From Nitzschia sp. pyKryTriq1 (Eukaryota > Bacillariophyta > Bacillariophyceae > Bacillariales > Bacillariaceae): DNA of 64,000 bases. The stretch covers positions 868,001-932,000 of the forward strand of contig OY101116.1 of NCBI GenBank assembly GCA_956465555.1. The letters are read 5' to 3'. The translations under genes and the position numbers were made by a program. Each line of letters starts with the position of its first letter. The stretch's first letter is position 1. Positions 17,563 to 56,759 of the stretch are shown here, piece after piece. Under the pieces are notes generated by a model. The model had not been told where the DNA came from, did no database searches, and worked only from the letters and a program-made list of their open reading frames with translations.

Positions 17563-20500
17563 TCAACTTGAAGCGTTCGCGTCGATTGGCTTGGTCTCGC
17601 GGGCTTTGGCCATTAAGAGACTCTCCACCCGATGTCTCAACTGCTGAAGCGCCTCTAGGATAATCGGGTTTGACCGCAGCGCTTGTACGACGACGGCGCA
17701 AGCCTTGTTTCGAGCGATACTTGCTGATAAATCCGAAACGGCAAACAAGATGGATTCCATGAAGTGAACATATCCTACAGCGTTGGAGCTAAATGGATCC
17801 ACCAATCGCCATGTTGCTCCGTCTAGAACTTCAGCGGGTGCATGCTCGGCAGCATAGTCATTTTCCCACGCTGTTTCCAGCTCTAGCATCTCGCCGAGGA
17901 TTTCCTGCAGAGCCTTCTTCGGGTGCATCAAGCATAACTTCTTCTTCTCTCGTCTGAGCTTCAAAAGAGCATTGCACATGGGCGCCAGCATGTTCGTCGC
18001 GGCTCTAAGACCTTGTGAGATCCCGCCGTCCGTATAAATGGCTCCAAACAGGCTTTCCACGATGTCGGCTATTGACTTGGGAGGCTCTGCCCCCCAAAGA
18101 CCACAACCATCTTCCTGGATGCATGTTATGTAAGATTCGATCCTGGGTGGAAGCGTGTAGTCCTTGTGTTCCAAGAAATGATGGAGACCGGTCTGGACCG
18201 AAAGAAAAGACAAAGCCTCATTCGAAACCAATGCGCTCTCCATCGTGACCATTTCACTTAGTTCCAACTCGGAGAAATTATTCCATATCCATTCCCGCGC
18301 TGCCAGACACAGGACAGCGTCGCCAACCCATTCAAGCCGTTCATAGGATGAAACGTTCGGATTACCAGCACTCGGATGAGCAAAGGCTTCCTCTAAAAGT
18401 TCCAGACGCTGGAAGCTGGCGTAGCCCGTTGCTCGCCTGACACACTCTATGAGATGTATGTCGACATTCGGTTGGCTGGTCGGTTCATCATGGGGAAATT
18501 CCGACGAGGTGAACGTCACTTTTAGCTCGTCACCAACATCTTTGGCTGCCTTGTAGCCGAATTTCAAATAAACAAGGCCAAGGATTGATTCAATAACGTC
18601 GGCATACAATTTGCCATTGGTCGCGGAGACCGACGGAAGGATCGATCCTTCTTTGAAATCAAGGCAGGATGGCAGCCACTGGCCTCTCGCCAAATTCGAA
18701 GACATGATATAGCTTTCTAGTCCAAACTGGTGGCAAACCTTCAAGTTGGATGTTCAAAGTCCGTGAGTCTAGCGATTCGAAGCCGCCGCGTTTGAATTTC
18801 AACGGAGCCGTCTTACCTCTTCCAGTTTTATGTTGCTTCCAACCTCTTTTGTTCATCAAGTGGTGTTGGTAGTTAGACTCACTAGCCAACGTCGGCAGTC
18901 CATGTTGTCCGAAACATCTTGCGCTTACCTTGTCGAATCGTAGAAAGGTCGCCTTCGTGGAGAAATTTGAGCCAGTCTCTCAATTCAGTAGATTTCAACA
19001 GACTCTCCGTCTGGATCATTTTGAGAACAGCGTCTCCGAACCTGAAGGCATATGGATGAGATCCTTCGACTTTCAGCACCCAGATGCAGCACATAATAGT
19101 AATACTCACCACTCTAATTTCTCGTAAGAGACATCCATACCACAGCTCTTGGCTGTCATAGCGTCCGTCACGGTACCGAGGGGAAGTCTTGTCAGATACG
19201 AACCTAGCTGAGGAAGATTCACGTTGCAAAATTCGATAAACGTTTTGGCGTTTTGGTGGCGCTCGTAAACAAAGAGAACCTTACATGATAAAATGGTAAC
19301 AACACTAAAGTTGAGGCATACGTTGGACGATGAGAATCAGCTCTCAGGCCGCTTCTCACATCCTCGTGACGATAGTGATTTCAATTCGTACGAGACTTAC
19401 CTGAGGTAAGAAGCAGGTCAAAAGACCCACATGAGCGTTGGCAATCTCTGCTTCAAAACATGCAGCCTGCGGTACTTTCACAGCCGAAAGCACAGGGCAC
19501 ATGTCATATTTGGCGCCTGCTGTCTTGATCAAGTTTTGACCGTCTGCAACAGATGCTGACATGGAAACAAAGCTGGAGGGCGTAGTCCAATATCTTTGAA
19601 CATCAAAAAGCTGATCATCGAGCGGCACGCTAATTCCTCTTTCCTTCTCGAAGTAGTCGTAGTAGCTCTTTATGCCCTCTTTTTCGGCAGGAAAATCAGC
19701 TGACACTGTTTCACCCGCGGGCCCAAAGGCAAGGTATGCCGTGCGATCGTCGATGCTCGAAGTCCAAAGCCGAGGCTGGGGCAGCGCTTTGTTCGTGGAG
19801 AGGGTTTTCACTGCCTTTTCCCTCTCTTTTCTCGTGCGCTTACTTTCCAATAAAATCAGTTTCATGAACTCCCAATCGGGGATGCTGTCGGGAGAAAGAA
19901 TTCCGGTGAAGTAGGGCATGAAGGATGCATCATACTTGGCTTCTTCCCGAACTTTGAAGTACATGTTGCGGCTGCGACGACGCCACCTTTCGTTCATGAG
20001 GAGGACAAAGAATTCTTCTAGCAGATCCAGCTCCTCCGCACTACACATAACGGAGACACCTGGACCAATCGTTGTGGTCACAAGCCCAAACTCTTTGTGG
20101 CAGATTTTCATCGTCGGTAAATCAATGCTCAACGGTTCAAAAGTGACGAGGCCTAATATGTGACCTTTTCCTTGGACAATATGCTCACACTGTGTGAAGG
20201 TTTCCGAGATGTGACGAATCGGATGGATAAAAATCTGCTTGGATGCACATTTCTGATAGAATTTTCCGAGAGGAAGTGCCCTGGGTTCAAACTTTGGCAA
20301 TCCGTTGGTAGAAGTTGCCAGAAGTAACTTTCTGTGCATGTCTGAGCGAGTAAGAGGAAGAAGACGATCATTAAGCAGTCCAAGGTTGTGGAGTCGCACA
20401 CAAGCCATCAGAGAAAGCACCTTTCGCTGTTCACGTTTCGCACAGTTGCGGAACTCTTCGGGTAGAGTTACAATCCGAAGTCGCGCTGGTAGGTGAGAAG

Positions 20501-23360
20501 GCAGAACAAGCGTGTTCGACCGGAAATCGGGCATGTGAGCAAGTAGAGTTTCTTTCGACGTCCTGACGAATGGGTCTAAGGGAACAGACATCGAATACCG
20601 ATTGAGCAAAGATTTGGCTGAGTGCAAATCTACAATACCAGCGCCATTTGCAGCTTTGAAGAATCCTTGTCTCACGGCAACAATTTCTGGCTCAGATGAT
20701 TGGTCTTCGTATGATGTTTCGCTTTCGATGATCCTAGATGCGCCTTCACTCGTTTTGGATTCGATGAACTCGTGGATTCTACGCTCCATTTCTTGAGCGG
20801 ACGAAAGGGGTACGATTGCTTTCTGCGATCGATTGGTGCAATCCTCAAAGACATAAAACTTGGCATTCTGCTTCCTGGCCCGGCCTTTCATCTGGACGTA
20901 GCTCTTCGTAGAGCGAATGGAATCGAATGCTACAACAAACGAACATGCTTGGACGTCAACACCTTCTTCCACCACCGCTGAGGTTCACAATTAAAGTCAG
21001 TCTTCAGTATACTCACACAATAGACAGAGTTTGCGCTCTACACTTACAAGTCGCAAATAGAAGATTCAGCTCTTTCCTTCGAAGTTTTGTCAGTACAACT
21101 CCAACTTTGTGGTCAACATGCAACCATGACTGCAGCATCTCTTCAGAAACCTCGGTTGGTACTCTCTCAATGCTCAAGGAGTTAAAAATACTTGTGATAT
21201 TTCGAACAAGGGTCGTTGAGCGAATGCGAGTACGCGTCTCTGGGTTGAAGTTTGAATCGGGATTACTACTGCCTTGGATAGCTTCATCAAGAGCAGGGGC
21301 ATCCCGACCGTCGAGAACCAAGGACATATCATCGTCGGCATCCATGAATTGATCAGTGGAATGCTGGGGTGGTCTGCTTTTCTTTTCTAGCATACTTGGA
21401 GGAGAAACGGTGGGCAGCGATGAGTTCGATACAGGTGTGATTTTCTCAAACTCGAAGAACGGATCCTCTTCCGAGTCGGCAAATACATCGTCGCTAACTG
21501 CATTTTCAATGGTCAGCGGTATGATTTCGCTTGTTACCGGTTTCTGCCACGCCAAGCGTCTTATCTCAGCCGATTTCCCCCAGCAATACATTTTTCTTTC
21601 CTTCCCCTGTTCATCGAATTTTCTATTCCGCCACCGAAAATAGTTGTGCAAGGCGACTGCCGTAATTCGACGATCCGTAAAGACTAGCCCCACGGTTTCA
21701 GATCCTCCATGATATTCAATCTCAGCTTCCAGGATTTCCTCGAGCGCCACGAGCTTATCTGTTCGACCATGGTGTGAAAAAGTGTGGCATTCTTGCTCGC
21801 AAAATTGAATGATTGTCCTCAAATGTTGCATCGCCACTTCAAATGCCTGCGGAGATTCATTCTCAAACTCGTTGCGCGATAGCTCACGAATGAGAGCTGT
21901 GCAGTACAATGAGACTGGAAGTGGCCCCAAGTCTTCATAGAGTTGTTGGAGTTGTCGAAATTCCCGGAATCTTGATTCGAGAAGCCCGAGATTGTCTGCC
22001 GGGGGTAGCCAGCGCGCAGTGTTGGTCCCCTGGAACTGTATTACTTTTTCTAGGGCAGTCCGTCTTCGAAATTGGTCCGAAATGAAACTCTCCGCTGATG
22101 CCAATGTGGCATCTAGTGTATTTTCCAATGAACTCAGCATGGATTCTAGGTCTTTGTCCGAATGCTTATCACGAACACTGACCAACGGCGAAGCCGTGAG
22201 TCCCAAGACATGAGGGCGATCTTCTTTTGGGAGAACATGGTAGAAATTTTCCATAATAAGCTTGTACGGATGATTTCCAGCACAGTAGTGACACTCGTCT
22301 ATCACAACTAAATTGAATCGAGACATGTGGAACATATCAGCGTAGTGCATGAGCAAATCATTGAGCTTTAGCGAGAAAATTGTGAGCATTCGTATAAGGA
22401 GTCGCTAGACAAGAACAGCACTTGCCAGACGCGAGCATTCCATCTCTTTCTTACCGCTCCATGAGTTGCTACCAAAATCTGGGCATTGTACATTTTGCTT
22501 CGATATTCTGGAGTGTTGGAAGTGTCGTAACATGCCGTTTCCACGGAAAAGGGTAAATTGGCTCGAAGAGTCATGGATTGTTGAATAGCCAACGCCACAC
22601 TGGGCACCATAAACAAAGTTTGCTTCTTTCCATGGTCCAAATTCCAGTCACTGCTTTTATCTTTGATCAAAAGTAAAGCAATCAATGTTTTCCCGTAGCC
22701 CGTGCTGTGTATACATGGAGAGTTGATGAGTGACGCGAGATCAACAAGGGGAGTGGGGGGGGGGGGGGGGGCATCATGATTCTTGGACGACAATTTTTCT
22801 CACCCTAGGTGCACAATAGTGTTGCTTTGTTTTGCCAGTTCCAACAGGATACGCTGATAATCTCTCGGATTTCCTTGGATTGTAGCATCGGCCATGAGCT
22901 TTGCCAATTTTTCCCGATGAGTTTCTTCTTGTATACGGCATCTTTTTGTAATATTGTTCGCTTGCGCCAACCACTCCAAGTAGGCCTGGACTCCTCCGTC
23001 GGTGGACTTTGACTTTTCCATCGCTTTCTCCAATCCTTTTTCAATACGTTCCACAGCACGTTGCATACTCTTCGAATCCAATATCGTTGGAGTTAAAAAT
23101 GCTTCAGCATTGAGTACTTGGGTGCTCGTGAATTCTTGTGGCTCCATTGCTGGCTCCAATCTGTTGTCTCCGTCTTCTTCTGGCACGGAATCGTCCTCGT
23201 CGTTCGCAGATGCTACCGACGCCAAACTCCTCCTCCGTCGAGTCTTTTGACCAAATTGGCTCTCATTTTGATTATCATATTCGTTGTTGTGCGTGTATGA
23301 CTGATCCCCAAAAAGGAGATCGGCATCTTGAAAGATTCCATCTTCGTCGTCGCTGTCCAT
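17563..23360 (-). CDS. DCR: Dicer, full domain set (helicase, dimerisation domain, PAZ-like region, two RNase III domains, dsRBD-like end)
   Basis: Eight exons: 23360-22804, 22704-22455, 22365-21048, 20977-19401, 19279-19110, 19041-18929, 18845-18817 and 18738-17563. All introns are GT-AG (68-121 bp) and keep frame, giving 1729 residues. The protein cuts double-stranded RNA into small RNAs. In order: an acidic N-terminus; DExD/H helicase (VHLGTGYGKT split by intron 1; VVIDECHYC; LGLTASP); helicase C (EEGVDVQACSFVVAFD and QMKGRARKQNAKFYVFE); a Dicer dimerisation domain (GIVDLHSAKSLLNRYSMSVP, ending HNLGLLNDRLLP); a PAZ/connector-like part (YYDYFEKERGISV). RNase IIIa follows (YEKLEWFGDAVLKM, ADVIESILGLVY), then RNase IIIb (YERLEWVGDAVLCL, ADIVESLFGAIY); all acidic catalytic residues are present in both. 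The C-terminal ~110 residues look like a dsRNA-binding fold (PKKALQEILGE, ARNKACAVVVQAL). Exon 7 is only 29 nt but restores the RNase III helix (TIRQEVGSNIKLEE). Confidence 0.93.
22755..22771. repeat. G17 homopolymer inside Dicer intron 1
   Basis: Seventeen consecutive G on the plus strand read as a C tract on the Dicer strand, in the middle of the 99-bp first intron. It may act as part of the pyrimidine tract and is prone to length error. Confidence 0.9.
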
Positions 23361-31670: not shown

Positions 31671-32790
31671 TCATCATTTCTCCATCTTTTTTTCTGAATA
31701 TACTGCAACCGTGAAGTGCATAAGAACACAGTATTATCATCCTCTCACGACTCACTCAACGTGATGCTCGTGCTCCTTCACCAGTATAACATGTATTTAG
31801 AAGCTGCTATCTGCGAAACAAACCGTCTGCTTTGAGTTGCGAACATGGTAGACAAAACAAAACATTTCGCGTGAGATGTGAGAACAGTAAACATGGTCAT
31901 ACCAGCAGTAAACACGCGTCAGCTGATGAACAGCGCATAACCCCCACTCTATTGCTACAGGTAACACTTACTGCTGTTTGTTGTGGTTGTTTCGGCATGG
32001 CAAGCGAGCAAATTGAAAACAGCAACCATTCGCTGATGTGATCGCGTCTATGAGTAATGCACGTAGTAGGAGGGAATCACATGTTCCCGGAACAGATCAA
32101 TCACCAGTGCAGCGATTATTCACCTGGATGAGGCAAAGTCCCAAAGATTTTGAAGTCCCAAAGATTTGACCACGTTTGCGAGGAAACGAAAAATTGAGTT
32201 TTCAGCTGTGATCACTGGCTTCGGATTTCTGCCCTCGCGGAATGACGTTTGGTGTCATTAAAAAACCTTCCACGGATATTTGTTCCATATGCATCATTTT
32301 ATTGAAACCGAGTGGCAAAAAGCTTGACATAGAAGATGGACATTAGAAGCGTTTGGCAGGTTGCGGTCGCCTGCCACAGCTTGGCCATGTCGGAGAATCC
32401 CCATCGATGCCTTGCGACGCTATGTTCTATTTGAATAATAATGTTGCTGCTGTCATGACAACCATCTGCTTGCTTCTTCCCGTCGCGATCTGATTGTTCG
32501 TTGAGAGGTTTTTCAAGCCCGTGCGTTTCTACCAACCTCGCTTTTTTGTTTATCGACTAGCACGACTACTATTTCCAAAAAAAATGAATGGCCCCCGACC
32601 CCCAACATAAAGATACTACCTGGTACTTCGTTCGTTCCGGGTATTACTACTGTAATACTCATATTATTTTCATTCGTTACTCTAGAGTAGAAGGAGAGAT
32701 ACGAGGTGCATACAATATAATTGACACAAGAAGGTTTTCCTTTATCAAGAGTCAATTGAGCTTTTATTTGTCCAGGGAAAAGAAGACGAG
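31671..32790. other. Intergenic region between Alba-like and PPR-TrmB genes
   Basis: The 1120 bases carry several short open frames on both strands, none with protein-like composition. tttatttgtccag just before the ATG at 32791 could be a leader-intron acceptor. Confidence 0.45.
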
Positions 32791-35079
32791 ATGGTTTTCT
32801 CTGATTTCTCTTCGAAAGCTGACGGATCAGCAAGCCCCAAAGGCCCGAGGCGTCGTCGTGGAAGGAACAAGGACGGCAACAGCCATACCGGCAAGGGGGG
32901 ATCGGAATCATCGAAGAAGATTGCTGCTCCGAATAATTCGAATTCGCAAAAACCAAAAAACGACGATCAAGTACGAAAGAGACCGGTTTCTCTGAGACCT
33001 GGTGAACGTGATGACGCGACTAGATCCACAAAGCGGAAACGATCCCAGCCGCCCTCCCAAGAGGCACTGAATCTCTCTGAGCAACTAAAAGAACTGTCAC
33101 GTCAAAAGAATTTGGACGAAGCTCTACGAATGTACCGAGATCCATCATACAATCGGATTCGTGATGGTCACCATTCCTGCATTATTATTGATTGTTGCGC
33201 CAGATGTGGACGAATAGAAGAAGGCGAGAAAGTCGTGGAGGAAATGAAAAAGTCTGGAATGCACGTCAACGTGGAAACGAAAACCGCGTTGATAAAGGGA
33301 TATGCCCATTCTGGTCAGATGGCGAAGGCAGACTCTCTATTTCAGTCTATGAGCAATGAGAAAAGTGGAGCCGATCGACCAAACGTGCGAACATTGAATA
33401 CTTTATTGAGGGGATGCCTCTGGTCCGCTTCCAGTGTCGACAAGGAAGGAGTTATCACAGGTGGCATTGTCACTGCAGAGAAAGCATGGGACAGGTGTCG
33501 AAATATACAAGAAAACGATTCAAAATCTATCGTATTCGATGTTTCTTCCTACGAATATTCGATTTCTCTTCTGTGCCAAGCTCTACGAACGCACGACGCC
33601 AGAACTCGAATTGAAGAAATGGAGTCCTTTTTCGAAGTCTCTGATGGTTCCCATGAAAGTCCACAGAGTGTTACTGAAGCTTTGGCGCTTTCCTTCTTGT
33701 CTCTTGCCAGGGCATTGGCCATTTTAGGGGAGGCAGACGACGCCAGACGTGCATGTGATAAATTTCTTCTGTATGCAAGATCCACCAGAGAGTCGCTGAG
33801 GGCAGGAAATTCTCAGCCCTCAAAAGTCGGAAGGCACGCAGTCAAGCAGGGCAAAGAATCCAAGAGTGGTCGACGTGACGAATCAAACACCTTGTATCGA
33901 AACCATAGGATTAATGAAGCGGAAAAAGAGGCTCGGGTTATTCTTGAGCTTTGTGACTCCAAAGGGATTGTACAAGATCCGCGTCAACTGGCGCGCCGAC
34001 TGATCACAAGACTATTGGTCCTTTCGGGCGGTGGCAGTACAGATGCTGAAAGTGAGGTCCACGGAGACAAGGAGACGCCATCCAGATCAGTCCAGATGCA
34101 GTTCTTGAACACATTGTACTATAGCTACGGCCTGGAAAAGATTCTCGAGAATGTGGGAGCACCAACGAAGGAGGGCATGACTTTTTTGAAAAGAAAAGAT
34201 TGCAATCGGATTTTGGGGTCCGTTGGTCTTCAAGGCGGAATCGTTCTTGATGATGGTTCTGTGGACTTTCAGCGCATTTTCAGGGTTGGAATAGGAGAGG
34301 ACAAAGGCAAAAAGAAGCAACCGAAAGGGCAAGGAAAACTTGAAATCGAACTTGGGTCCGGCTTTGGAGACTGGATCGTTCAAAAAGCCCGAGAGCAACC
34401 AACTACAAACTTCATTTCGGTAGAACTGAGGGCAGATCGTGTGGCGCAGACTTTTGCAAGAACCGCCATACTAGCAGGAACGTCACCAGTGAACAATTTG
34501 TGCATTGTCGGCGCAGAAAGCAGAGCATTCCTCTCGCAACAGATTCAACAAGAATCAGTTTCGTCGATCTTTGTCAATCATCCAGAACCTCCAACTCAGA
34601 CGTATGGGGCAGACTCATTTAATTTGAAATCAATTATGAAGGGAGGTCCTGAGCCCGCTCATATGCTGACGAGCCAGATGCTCCAGGCTGCAGCTCGGTG
34701 CTTATCGAAAAAGAGCAACAGTCGGCTGATTATTGTCACTGATAACAAATCATACGGTCGCCTGATATGTGCCACTCTCGTCAAAGTGATGATGCATGAT
34801 AGTACTCTACTTTTCCCGGTCGAACTTGAGGATGACTTCAAAGCAGTGGAGTCGTTTCCGGTCGGTAATGAACCGGCGGGGCAAGATGGTTTGGTTGGAA
34901 CGATCACTCTGTATGAAGGTCAACCAAATGGCAAGATTGGTCACCCAAAACCAGTGGATGATTCAGGGGGTAAAGGGGCAACATACTTCGACCGTTTGTG
35001 GAGAAGCGGTGCGGGCTCCCACGCAGAGAAATCTTCCAGATTTATCGTTGTCGCAAGCCGTATCGTAACACAACAATAA
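32791..35079 (+). CDS. PPR-tRNA (guanine-N7) methyltransferase fusion
   Basis: A single exon of 762 residues. The N-terminus is basic and disordered (RRRRGRNKDGN), possibly a nuclear signal. Residues ~95-330 contain pentatricopeptide-type helical repeats (HHSCIIIDCCARCGRIEEGE; VETKTALIKGYAHSGQMAKA), which read RNA sequence. From ~505 on comes a TrmB-like Rossmann methyltransferase: LEIELGSGFGDWIVQKA (SAM site), FISVELRADRVAQTFARTA, NLCIVGAES and IFVNHPEPP at the place of the family's FPDPW motif. TrmB makes m7G46 in tRNA. The fusion suggests that PPRs guide methylation to chosen RNAs, perhaps in an organelle; no clear organelle signal is seen. The altered PDPW site may change activity. The TRM82 partner gene lies 7.6 kb away. 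Confidence 0.85.
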   Translation: MVFSDFSSKADGSASPKGPRRRRGRNKDGNSHTGKGGSESSKKIAAPNNSNSQKPKNDDQVRKRPVSLRPGERDDATRSTKRKRSQPPSQEALNLSEQLKELSRQKNLDEALRMYRDPSYNRIRDGHHSCIIIDCCARCGRIEEGEKVVEEMKKSGMHVNVETKTALIKGYAHSGQMAKADSLFQSMSNEKSGADRPNVRTLNTLLRGCLWSASSVDKEGVITGGIVTAEKAWDRCRNIQENDSKSIVFDVSSYEYSISLLCQALRTHDARTRIEEMESFFEVSDGSHESPQSVTEALALSFLSLARALAILGEADDARRACDKFLLYARSTRESLRAGNSQPSKVGRHAVKQGKESKSGRRDESNTLYRNHRINEAEKEARVILELCDSKGIVQDPRQLARRLITRLLVLSGGGSTDAESEVHGDKETPSRSVQMQFLNTLYYSYGLEKILENVGAPTKEGMTFLKRKDCNRILGSVGLQGGIVLDDGSVDFQRIFRVGIGEDKGKKKQPKGQGKLEIELGSGFGDWIVQKAREQPTTNFISVELRADRVAQTFARTAILAGTSPVNNLCIVGAESRAFLSQQIQQESVSSIFVNHPEPPTQTYGADSFNLKSIMKGGPEPAHMLTSQMLQAAARCLSKKSNSRLIIVTDNKSYGRLICATLVKVMMHDSTLLFPVELEDDFKAVESFPVGNEPAGQDGLVGTITLYEGQPNGKIGHPKPVDDSGGKGATYFDRLWRSGAGSHAEKSSRFIVVASRIVTQQ

Positions 35080-35812
35080 CTGATTTTTAGTTCGATCGAC
35101 CCTAGAAACTTATTTTGCCTGTTTTTTCTTCTATACCAAGGTCCGGCTCAGATCTTCTCCAACGTCTATCGCCAATTACTATCTCTCCACACTCTACACT
35201 ACAGTACAAAAGCAGCGTAGAACTACTTCAGCTACTAGTTTACGATCGTAGAGAGAATGCTTTGCCATACTTTTCCTACCAGAGAGGGCTGAATCATACT
35301 AGATCGTACCGAATGATACAGAGAGGCTCTCTCTCTCTCTCTCTAGTCAAAATACCTTTGGGAACTTGACCCAAGCAGAGAGAACATATTCGTAGTGGTG
35401 GCTACTCTCTACTCTCTACTAGCGCTCTCTCTCTACTCTACTAGTAGAGAGAGATACTACATATGGGTACATGATAAAGTCTGAATGCATTACAGTCTGT
35501 GGTACGTACCTCGTACGGCACGGTATTCCCGGTAGCGACTACCGGTAGACCGGTACCGGTACACATAGCAAGAGGCGCGTGGGGGTGGCGGGTGTAAATG
35601 AAGAAGTCGTATCGGTCGTACAAGGTCTCCAGATTGGACTACATCGACCAAGTTTCAGTCCGGTCCCAGTTGAACCAAATCTTGATAGCATTCGCAAGAT
35701 CAACATTCCCGCCTATCGAGTTTTCCGTGCTTGCATCATGCATGCGTATGAGATGGCAATGTGTCGGCCATCGCCTCTCACAATTTTCTTTTAGGTCAAC
35801 AAAACAATCAAG
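35080..35812. promoter_or_regulatory. Promoter region of antenna gene 1 with repeats
   Basis: The 733 bases upstream of the first antenna gene hold a CT run at 35327-35344, the palindrome CTCTACTAGTAGAG at 35436-35449 and ACCGGTACCGGT at 35549-35560. ttttcttttag at ~35784-35794, shortly before the ATG, may end a leader intron. Confidence 0.5.
35436..35449. repeat. Perfect 14-base palindrome CTCTACTAGTAGAG
   Basis: The same 14 bases occur at 6870-6883 and 55342-55355, always intergenic. Shorter forms (CTACTAGTAG) lie at 38081-38090 and 59826-59835. Confidence 0.9.
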
Positions 35813-36436
35813 ATGAAGCTCGCTATCGCCGCCCTCCTCGCCGGATCTGCCGCCGCCTTTGCCCCGGCCCAAACTGCCAAGACCTCGTCTGCCCTTGCCG
35901 TCAGCGAGCTTGAGCTCGGAGTCACTGAGCCCCTTGGTGTTTACGACCCTCTTGGATGGTTGGAGACCCAACCCGAGTCCTTCGAGCGTCGCCGAGCCGT
36001 CGAGCGCAAGCACGGACGTGTTGCCATGGCTGCCGTTGTCGGTGTCATCGTCCACAACAACCACATTGTCTTCGATGGATACCTTTCCCCCTCGAACAAC
36101 TTGAAGTTCTCCGATGTTCCCCTTGGAGCCGATGGTATCCGTGCCATCCCCACCGCCGGACTTGCCCAAATCCTTGCCTTCTTCGCCCTTGTCGAGTTGG
36201 CCTGGATGCCTGCCTCCAAGTACGACGGAGACTACGGTGTTGGATACTTCGGAACCAACATCGAGGACCCCGAAGAGAAGGCCCGCAAGTTGAACGTTGA
36301 GATCAACAACGGCCGCGCCGCCATGATGGGTATCCTCGGAAACTTGGTTGCCGAGCAATTGACTGGCCAAACCATGTACGAGCAATACGCCGCTGGACAC
36401 ATCTCGCCCTTCGGTGATGGTCAAGGTGTCTTCTAA
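35813..36436 (+). CDS. Fucoxanthin-chlorophyll a/c antenna protein, copy 1
   Basis: 207 residues, no intron in the coding part. The signal peptide ends SAAAFAPAQ, the diatom plastid import junction. The light-harvesting core has three helices: ERKHGRVAMAAVVGVIVHNN (helix 1, chlorophyll-binding Glu/His-Arg), GLAQILAFFALVELAW (helix 2) and EINNGRAAMMGILGNLVAEQ (helix 3). The protein binds fucoxanthin and chlorophylls a and c in the thylakoid and passes energy to the photosystems. Codons are extremely biased (TTA, CTA and TCA avoided), a mark of very high expression. The protein is identical to copy 3 at 55648-56271; the gene converges on copy 2. Confidence 0.96.
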   Translation: MKLAIAALLAGSAAAFAPAQTAKTSSALAVSELELGVTEPLGVYDPLGWLETQPESFERRRAVERKHGRVAMAAVVGVIVHNNHIVFDGYLSPSNNLKFSDVPLGADGIRAIPTAGLAQILAFFALVELAWMPASKYDGDYGVGYFGTNIEDPEEKARKLNVEINNGRAAMMGILGNLVAEQLTGQTMYEQYAAGHISPFGDGQGVF

Positions 36437-36983: not shown

Positions 36984-37607
36984 TTAGAAGACACCCTGTC
37001 CATCACCGAAGGGGGAGATGTGTCCAGCAGCGTATTGCTCGTACATGGTTTGTCCGGTCAATTGCTCAGCGACCATGTTTCCGAAGATTCCCATCATGGC
37101 AGCTCGGCCGTTGTTAAGCTCAACATTCAACTTGCGGGCCTTCTCTTCGGGGTCAGTGATTTCACGTCCGAACCAGCCAACACCGTAGTCTCCGTCGTAC
37201 TGAGAGGCGGGCAACCACGCCAACTCAAGAAGGGCAAGGAAAAGGAAGATTTGGGCAAGTCCAGCAGAAGGGACAGCTGCGATTCCGGCCATACCGGTGG
37301 GAACGTCAGAGAACTTCAATCCAGCGGAGGGGGAAAGGTATCCATCGAAAACAATGTGGTTGTTGTGGACGATGACACCGACAACGGCAGCCATGGCGAT
37401 ACGTCCGTGCTTGCGTTCAACAGCCCGGCGACGCTCGAAGGCCTCGGGTTCAGTCTCGAGCCATCCAAGAGGATCGAAAACTCCAAGGGGCTCAGTGACA
37501 CCAAGTTCGAGCTCGCTGACCGAAAGGGCAGACGAAGTCTTCGCAGTTTGGGCCGGGGCAAAGGCGGCGGCAGATCCGGCAAGGAGGGCGGCAATAGCGA
37601 GCTTCAT
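36984..37607 (-). CDS. Fucoxanthin-chlorophyll a/c antenna protein, copy 2
   Basis: 207 residues from the ATG at 37607. Same signal (SAAAFAPAQ) and three-helix layout as copy 1: ERKHGRIAMAAVVGVIVHNN, GLAQIFLFLALLELAW and ELNNGRAAMMGIFGNMVAEQ. It differs from copies 1 and 3 at many sites in the middle (for example FSDVPTGMAGIAAVPSAG and GWFGREITDPEEKA), yet the last ~28 residues and the first ~28 are identical. This pattern suggests purifying selection at the ends or partial gene conversion. Thylakoid light harvesting as for the other copies. The same strong codon bias is visible. Confidence 0.95.
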   Translation of the reverse strand: MKLAIAALLAGSAAAFAPAQTAKTSSALSVSELELGVTEPLGVFDPLGWLETEPEAFERRRAVERKHGRIAMAAVVGVIVHNNHIVFDGYLSPSAGLKFSDVPTGMAGIAAVPSAGLAQIFLFLALLELAWLPASQYDGDYGVGWFGREITDPEEKARKLNVELNNGRAAMMGIFGNMVAEQLTGQTMYEQYAAGHISPFGDGQGVF

Positions 37608-38541
37608 CTTGATTAGTTCTACTGAAAAAAATAATTTGACAGTGTAGTTTGCATCTCTTCGAGGCACGATTTCTCTTGCCTTTCGATGACGAAGAGTTGG
37701 TTCAACAAATCCAGAGGATACGAGTTCAACCTCTACGACGTCCCTACGAGCGAATGACTACCAGGTACTAACGTGCATGATGACTTCTTGCCTCCTTCGT
37801 ATGAATTTTGTCGTAGAAAGATACGTTGATCAGGTTCTGTGCCCGCGCTCGAGAGGTTCACAGAAAGCCTGTCCGTCAACCGATTTGTCGTCTGACGTCG
37901 CCTCATTGCGGTATACTGTTACAATACCGGTACGTTTACTGTACAGTAAAGTACTGGTACCAGGCACAGAACAAGTATGTACTCACTCGTACCGTTCGGA
38001 TGGGTCGCGTCGCGTTGCGTCGGTGACATACGTACATACATAATATTATACTCCGTGAGAAGATATCTCCCTACTACTAGCTACTAGTAGAGAGATTACC
38101 GGTAGGCATCTACATAATTATTTACACTTGATACGTACCCATGCCATTCCCTGCTGTGCCCTCAAGTCGTCTCGCGCCAGCCAGCCAAAACCAGAACACG
38201 CGCCCGCTGGCCCCATCAACACCAACAAAAATGAATAACGTCTTGATGGCACCTGCACCACACCCCAAGTTTCAAGTTTCATCTTTCAATTTCATCTTTC
38301 ATCCAAGAAGGCAAGTTGGCAGCAGTCAGCATCTATCCATTATCCATTGAAAACACCAACCAATAATCAAAGATTCTTCGTTCCTCTCGTTTGTTGGACA
38401 ACACCAACAGGAGTAGCATACCAGAGAGTAGGAAGAAAAAAGTGCATTGCGCTCAATTTTGAAACTGTGGAGTGAGTCAGTGAGTCTGCGCTACATCGAC
38501 GTCGAAATTGCGACAGTATCATCATACTGGTGTGCAGCACC
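37608..38541. promoter_or_regulatory. Divergent promoter region of antenna gene 2 and TPR-methyltransferase
   Basis: The 934 bases contain GTACC motifs around 37925-37970 and CTACTAGTAG at 38081-38090. No supported gene. Confidence 0.45.
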
Positions 38542-55647: not shown

Positions 55648-56271
55648 TTAGAAGACACCTTGGCCATCACCGAAGGGCGAGATGTGTCCAGCGGCGTATT
55701 GCTCGTACATGGTTTGGCCAGTCAATTGCTCGGCAACCAAGTTTCCGAGGATACCCATCATGGCGGCGCGGCCGTTGTTGATCTCAACATTCAACTTGCG
55801 GGCCTTCTCTTCGGGGTCCTCGATGTTGGTTCCGAAGTATCCAACACCGTAGTCTCCGTCGTACTTGGAGGCAGGCATCCAGGCCAACTCGACAAGGGCG
55901 AAGAAGGCAAGGATTTGGGCAAGTCCGGCGGTGGGGATGGCACGGATACCATCGGCTCCAAGGGGAACATCGGAGAACTTCAAGTTGTTCGAGGGGGAAA
56001 GGTATCCATCGAAGACAATGTGGTTGTTGTGGACGATGACACCGACAACGGCAGCCATGGCAACACGTCCGTGCTTGCGCTCGACGGCTCGGCGACGCTC
56101 GAAGGACTCGGGTTGGGTCTCCAACCATCCAAGAGGGTCGTAAACACCAAGGGGCTCAGTGACTCCGAGCTCAAGCTCGCTGACGGCAAGGGCAGACGAG
56201 GTCTTGGCGGTTTGGGCCGGGGCAAAGGCGGCGGCAGATCCGGCGAGGAGGGCGGCGATAGCAAGCTTCAT
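55648..56271 (-). CDS. Fucoxanthin-chlorophyll a/c antenna protein, copy 3
   Basis: 207 residues from the ATG at 56271. The protein is identical, residue for residue, to copy 1 at 35813-36436, with only scattered silent changes (for example AAGCTT against AAGCTC after the ATG, and GGC against GGT near the end). It has the same plastid signal (SAAAFAPAQ) and the three light-harvesting helices. It lies ~19 kb from copy 1 in opposite orientation, and its flanks do not match those of copy 1. Identity confined to the coding part points to gene conversion or very strong selection with codon bias. Confidence 0.96.
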   Translation of the reverse strand: MKLAIAALLAGSAAAFAPAQTAKTSSALAVSELELGVTEPLGVYDPLGWLETQPESFERRRAVERKHGRVAMAAVVGVIVHNNHIVFDGYLSPSNNLKFSDVPLGADGIRAIPTAGLAQILAFFALVELAWMPASKYDGDYGVGYFGTNIEDPEEKARKLNVEINNGRAAMMGILGNLVAEQLTGQTMYEQYAAGHISPFGDGQGVF

Positions 56272-56759
56272 TTTGATCGTAAAAGAGGTGTTGACTGCAA
56301 TTGTAAGAAGAGAGAGCTGAGAAGACCGCAGGAGCCATACAAGCAACCGGAACGAAACAACCAAACATCTTCAACGATGGCGTTGCACCGTGAGGAAAAG
56401 ATCGCTGACAAGTGGATATCGGTGCACAAGTTGAGGCTATTCCCAGTACTGGAACGCCGTACAAAGATACTTCAACTTCTTCAACTGGCGATGAAGAACG
56501 GACGTTCGAAGCCGGTCAAAGTCAAAATGTCGCTCGGTCGCGATCGGTCTGACCGAACCAAAATTCTCTCTACGACAGTCGGACGACACGAAAAGCCCCG
56601 CCGGCCGGCATGGATGTATCTGATGTATCTGGCCGGCCGCCGCGCATTGAAATCGGAGAACCCCGGGCCGGCGAAAGCGCCAAAGGCCGAAGGCGGAGAA
56701 AGGACAGAAAAAGATCAACAGAAGAAAGAGCTTATTACTTGTCATTTTCACGATCCACC
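56272..56759. promoter_or_regulatory. Divergent promoter region of antenna gene 3 and UBLCP1
   Basis: The 488 bases lie between two divergent starts. Two GCCGGCC-type sites occur at ~56600-56640. An open frame crosses it only because the antisense of antenna gene 3 is open. Confidence 0.45.

Follow-up and report, generated by a model that had tools for sequence, protein, structure and literature searches.

The question raised by this locus is whether a diatom can carry a Dicer of the full, helicase-bearing form, since diatoms have been described, in the account of PMC3145265, as having no canonical Dicer. The preliminary description of the 64,000-nucleotide stretch analysed here (the window) had proposed a complete canonical Dicer of eight exons, and had described the candidate Dicers of model diatoms as reduced and hard to recognise. 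The published accounts bear out a reduced form: the P. tricornutum enzyme is described as a dsRBD and two RNase III domains only (PMC4247016), and the second motif of RNase IIIa is reported to be changed in P. tricornutum, as are both motifs of RNase IIIb in P. tricornutum and T. pseudonana (PMC4791657). A contrary account describes the key residues of both Dicers as conserved (PMC3145265). For T. pseudonana, a separate protein with a helicase, a weak PAZ and a dsRBD has also been described (PMC3155517). The window gene bears on the evolution of RNA silencing in diatoms.

We rebuilt the gene by matching open frames to splice sites, which returned the eight-exon model identically, on the minus strand from 23360 to 17563, encoding 1729 amino acids followed by a stop (Table 1). 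There is neither a stop nor a loss of frame across the 1729 codons, and upstream of the start an in-frame stop is reached at 41 codons with no ATG in between. All seven introns (68–121 nt) are of the GT-AG type with GTRAG donors; a run of 17 G residues (window 22755–22771) lies inside intron 1 and leaves the reading frame untouched. Scored by the codon usage of 15 other open frames in the same genome, the modelled frame was the best of six in every one of the eight exons, albeit with a slight margin over the best antisense frame in exon 6 (0.292 versus 0.284) and a small one in exon 7 (0.200 versus 0.149). Exon 7 is a microexon of 29 nt. Joining exon 6 straight to exon 8 breaks the frame and was rejected; the microexon is preferred because it keeps the frame, has standard splice sites and matches PDB chain 7eld (Dicer homolog 1, which we take to be Arabidopsis DCL1) without a gap.

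Homology to 7eld also bears on whether the exons could have been misjoined, or the gene be foreign DNA in the assembly. Six of the seven splice junctions fall within significant alignment blocks to this chain, whereas the only alignment over the seventh (after aa 1234) is a block to Dicer-like protein 4 that, at 6.6 bits, is not significant; this speaks in favour of an artefact. Against it, the gene lies within a 4.29-Mb contig, light-harvesting genes occur in the same window, and the GC content of the gene (0.463–0.486 per 2 kb) is inside the range of the window (0.456–0.508). We consider an artefact highly improbable and conclude that the gene is real.

Table 1. Features of the Dicer gene, in window coordinates.
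Feature	Position	Strand	Content	Evidence
Exon 1	22804..23360	-	Acidic N-terminus, start codon, helicase start up to Walker A	Gene model, codon score
Exon 2	22455..22704	-	Remainder of Walker A (GTGYGKT), motifs Ia and Ib	Gene model, PDB alignment, motifs
Exon 3	21048..22365	-	DECH box (22299-22288), LTASP, insert, Helicase_C start	Gene model, Pfam, motifs
Exon 4	19401..20977	-	Helicase_C with QMKGRAR, Dicer_dimer (20618-20343), platform/PAZ-position region (20342-19401), no PAZ match	Gene model, Pfam
Exon 5	19110..19279	-	Connector and RNase IIIa start	Gene model, PDB alignment
Exon 6	18929..19041	-	RNase IIIa, remainder of first catalytic motif	Gene model, PDB alignment
Exon 7	18817..18845	-	29-nt microexon, EVGSNIKLEE in RNase IIIa	Gene model, gapless against chain 7eld
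Exon 8	17563..18738	-	RNase IIIa remainder, RNase IIIb, C-terminal stretch at dsRBD position (17955-17566), stop; no dsRBD match	Gene model, Pfam, PDB alignment
RNase IIIa catalytic motifs	18586..19126	-	E1290, D1294, D1385, E1388; introns intervene	PDB alignment, Pfam
RNase IIIb domain	18022..18342	-	E1474, D1478, D1563, E1566	Pfam, motifs

The domains of the protein follow the order of a Dicer. Searched whole against Pfam, it matched Ribonuclease_3 (114.4 bits), Ribonucleas_3_3 (82.2), DEAD (74.3; aa 169–329), ResIII (57.3), Helicase_C (37.5; aa 693–742) and Dicer_dimer (31.3; aa 829–920), all above cut-off. These matches, together with the motifs GTGYGKT, DECH, LTASP and QMKGRAR, uphold the DExH helicase and helicase C domain proposed earlier, as does the score of the dimerisation domain (PF03368, also DUF283; cut-off 23.7 bits) for that domain. 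The two RNase III domains exceed their cut-off of 27 bits when scored separately (51.4 bits for IIIa alone and 83.5 bits for exon 8 with IIIb) and, as had been claimed, retain all acidic catalytic residues (8 of 8; Table 1). A search of the PDB (E≤0.001) matched 71 sequences, with 7eld at the top (E 4.7e-77); among the best 60 of these 71, the first 17 comprise 16 Dicer or Dicer-like chains and one ‘AncD1D2’, and those that follow are mostly RIG-I-type helicases. The locus is very probably a nuclear gene of a diatom that encodes an endoribonuclease of the Dicer family, and its product is most likely an active Dicer.

The description as a canonical Dicer is borne out for the helicase, the dimerisation domain and the tandem RNase III domains, but ‘complete’ overstates it, as neither a PAZ nor a dsRBD was found in the protein by Pfam at E≤10. 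The proposed PAZ-like connector drew no PAZ match by any of the other routes either: searching the genome for PAZ (E≤1) gave matches only at two Argonaute places, one of them below cut-off; a PDB search with the region at the platform/PAZ position yielded just two RNA polymerase III subunit sequences; and a profile built from the platform regions of two proteins, the one from the window and a second, Dicer-like one encoded on C12 (see below), matched two unrelated chains in the PDB and no Dicer. The proposed dsRBD-like end fared no better, the PDB search of that region returning one unrelated chain. When AlphaFold was applied to exon 4 and to exon 8 separately, without relatives, the resulting models were unusable (mean pLDDT 31.2 and 37.4).

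The spacer between the dimerisation domain and RNase IIIa is nevertheless long enough to leave room for a platform and PAZ, measuring, by the ends of the alignment blocks, 337 residues as against 416 in 7eld, 307 against 319 in Dicer-like protein 4 and 348 against 576 in the 21cq Dicer, the last block being non-significant in the latter two comparisons. Read by eye, FLPQ-VL before RNase IIIa and a Y..FMP...DWE stretch resemble a Dicer platform, and the corresponding stretch of the C12 protein gives a weak 9.0-bit block to 7eld. We consider the presence of a PAZ in the window protein likely. An unlikely alternative is a Dicer-like nuclease without a true PAZ, acting as a general nuclease of double-stranded or structured RNA or as a dsRNA sensor rather than as a length-measuring producer of siRNAs. 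The missing PAZ and dsRBD signals in the Pfam, genome and PDB searches are consistent with such an enzyme, as is a spacer shorter than those of 7eld and 21cq, whereas retention of the dimerisation domain and of both RNase III domains argues against it.

If the protein is instead an active Dicer, its RIG-I-type helicase would engage dsRNA and feed it in, a diverged platform/PAZ between the dimerisation domain and RNase IIIa would grip the RNA end and fix the product length, and RNase IIIa and IIIb, paired inside one chain, would cut one strand each to leave 2-nt 3′ overhangs. An RNA-dependent RNA polymerase (RdRP) might make or amplify the dsRNA, and the duplexes would presumably pass to an Argonaute of the same genome, the choice between its two Argonautes being a guess.

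We searched the genome for RNAi-related domains. As it was read exon by exon and only the best candidates were scored, the locus counts are lower bounds: at least three RNase III loci, at least two Piwi loci (an Argonaute being what the preliminary description had proposed to look for), at least three RdRP loci from four matches, and at least one Dicer_dimer locus (E≤1). All three RdRP loci carry DLDGD, as judged by eye. The exon 4 protein matched only itself in its own genome. One Argonaute, on C2, lies ∼0.88 Mb from the window Dicer and by eye keeps two PIWI aspartates in comparison with 9s0z. A further RNase III locus on C7 (L018; 42.9 bits) looks like an organelle Mini-III and was set aside.

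The C12 Dicer-like gene is a 1092-aa open frame with one RNase III domain above cut-off (37.5 bits), in which the motif reads LCNIVES, one acid being replaced by N. A second RNase III stretch scores 15.6 bits, below the cut-off of 27, and its catalytic positions are lost in the alignment. The N-terminal part gave no dsRBD match, and one can be read there by eye only. The predicted protein resembles the reduced Dicers of P. tricornutum and, in part, T. pseudonana, and, judged by published motif descriptions, it may be the same protein as the reduced diatom DCR; it fits the account of altered motifs (PMC4791657) and not that of conserved key residues (PMC3145265). With a helicase-bearing gene in the window and one like the reduced Dicers on C12, the genome seems to hold both types. 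The apparent presence of an intact and a reduced Dicer in one genome favours loss in the model species over lineage-wide absence, and it means that the small RNAs made by either enzyme could be told apart within a single organism.

With two such genes, the reduced C12 Dicer might itself make the small RNAs of the cell, the window gene being conditional or on its way to being lost. In P. tricornutum, reported to have one predicted Dicer-like protein of the reduced form (PMC4247016), that reduced Dicer is said to process RNAs of 26–31 nt (Grypioti 2024, cited via PMC11910954), which speaks for this reading. The altered RNase IIIa acid and sub-threshold second domain of the C12 form speak against it, as do the uninterrupted 1729 codons of the window gene, and we think it improbable. 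Two scans of viral contigs and one of genome contigs yielded no relatives usable for measuring selection; one of the viral scans turned up three contigs with a single weak match (30% over query residues 431–496).

The reduced Dicer gene stands together with an RdRP and an Argonaute gene within 16.9 kb of C12 (1,506,902–1,523,795; L011–L014), and between them are two genes that we name by eye, one DGAT-like and the other EF-hand. When three RdRP, two Piwi and three RNase III loci were placed at random, such a triple arose in 2 of 200,000 trials, in a test that was devised after the cluster had been seen and that treats the genome as one contig. The RdRP of the cluster is, by its predicted protein, fused to a chromodomain: a single open frame (L013 5905–8358, minus strand, equal to L011 905–3358) holds both a chromodomain match (24.9 bits, just below the cut-off of 25.1) and an N-terminal RdRP half, with aa 595–800 matching the C14 RdRP (E 3.5e-20). 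A tentative possibility, which we would rate below an even chance, is that the genome has two separate silencing pathways, a classic one with the window Dicer, in which the C2 Argonaute may take part, and a chromatin-directed one formed by the ∼17-kb C12 set of chromodomain-fused RdRP, Argonaute and catalytically altered reduced Dicer. The C12 kind might then be what P. tricornutum kept after losing the classic one.

The window and genome hold other genes of note. Light-harvesting protein genes similar to one another lie at window 35795–36433, 36987–37757 and 55651–56370, the first two assigned by Pfam and the third by its opening residues. A single open frame on the plus strand (window 32725–35073) combines PPR repeats with a Methyltransf_4 domain. 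The genome has eight silicon-transporter loci, seven of them above 870 bits and four of the eight within 42 kb (C1 275839–317295); silicon transporters are chiefly diatom proteins, some other silicified algae also carrying them. Together with the light-harvesting proteins of the window, these loci indicate that the host is almost surely a diatom.

How far the window gene departs from known Dicers can now be considered. The form has precedents among stramenopiles: in brown algae, described as having a canonical Dicer (PMC3145265), in the oomycete P. sojae, whose DCL1 is described as carrying a helicase together with two RNase III domains and no predicted PAZ (PMC4791657), and in the diatom Fragilariopsis cylindrus, whose Dicer candidate 242149 is described as combining two RNase III domains with a DNMT, a helicase and a dsRBD (PMC4156623). 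The window gene is hence not the first helicase-bearing diatom Dicer. In the parts of the literature cited here, F. cylindrus 242149 is the only diatom Dicer in which helicase and RNase III are joined in one protein; the Dicer of Chaetoceros tenuissimus is named with its domains not given (PMC8613185), and a 2024 survey that mined diatom genomes and described diversified RNAi effectors (Grypioti 2024, via PMC11910954) may already list genes of the window type.

Compared by description, the window protein and F. cylindrus 242149 are both diatom proteins in which two RNase III domains are joined to a helicase, but the latter has an N-terminal DNA methyltransferase to which nothing corresponds at the window gene. 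A fusion of this kind was sought and rejected: no such domain is present in the window protein, and none of the eight listed PF00145 matches lies within a megabase. With the P. tricornutum and T. pseudonana DCR proteins the window protein shares two RNase III domains (PMC4247016, PMC3155517, PMC4791657), yet those are described as having no helicase in the same protein and altered RNase III motifs (PMC4791657). The window gene is thus not of the reduced P. tricornutum type, since its helicase is present and its RNase III motifs are unaltered. Like oomycete DCL1 it encodes a stramenopile Dicer with two RNase III domains as well as a helicase, and it differs in having DECH where the DExH box of the oomycete protein is reported as altered (PMC4791657). 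Set against 7eld, the protein has no detectable PAZ or dsRBD and a shorter spacer (337 versus 416 residues), but its helicase, Dicer dimerisation region and both RNase III domains are arranged as in 7eld, with the same catalytic acids.
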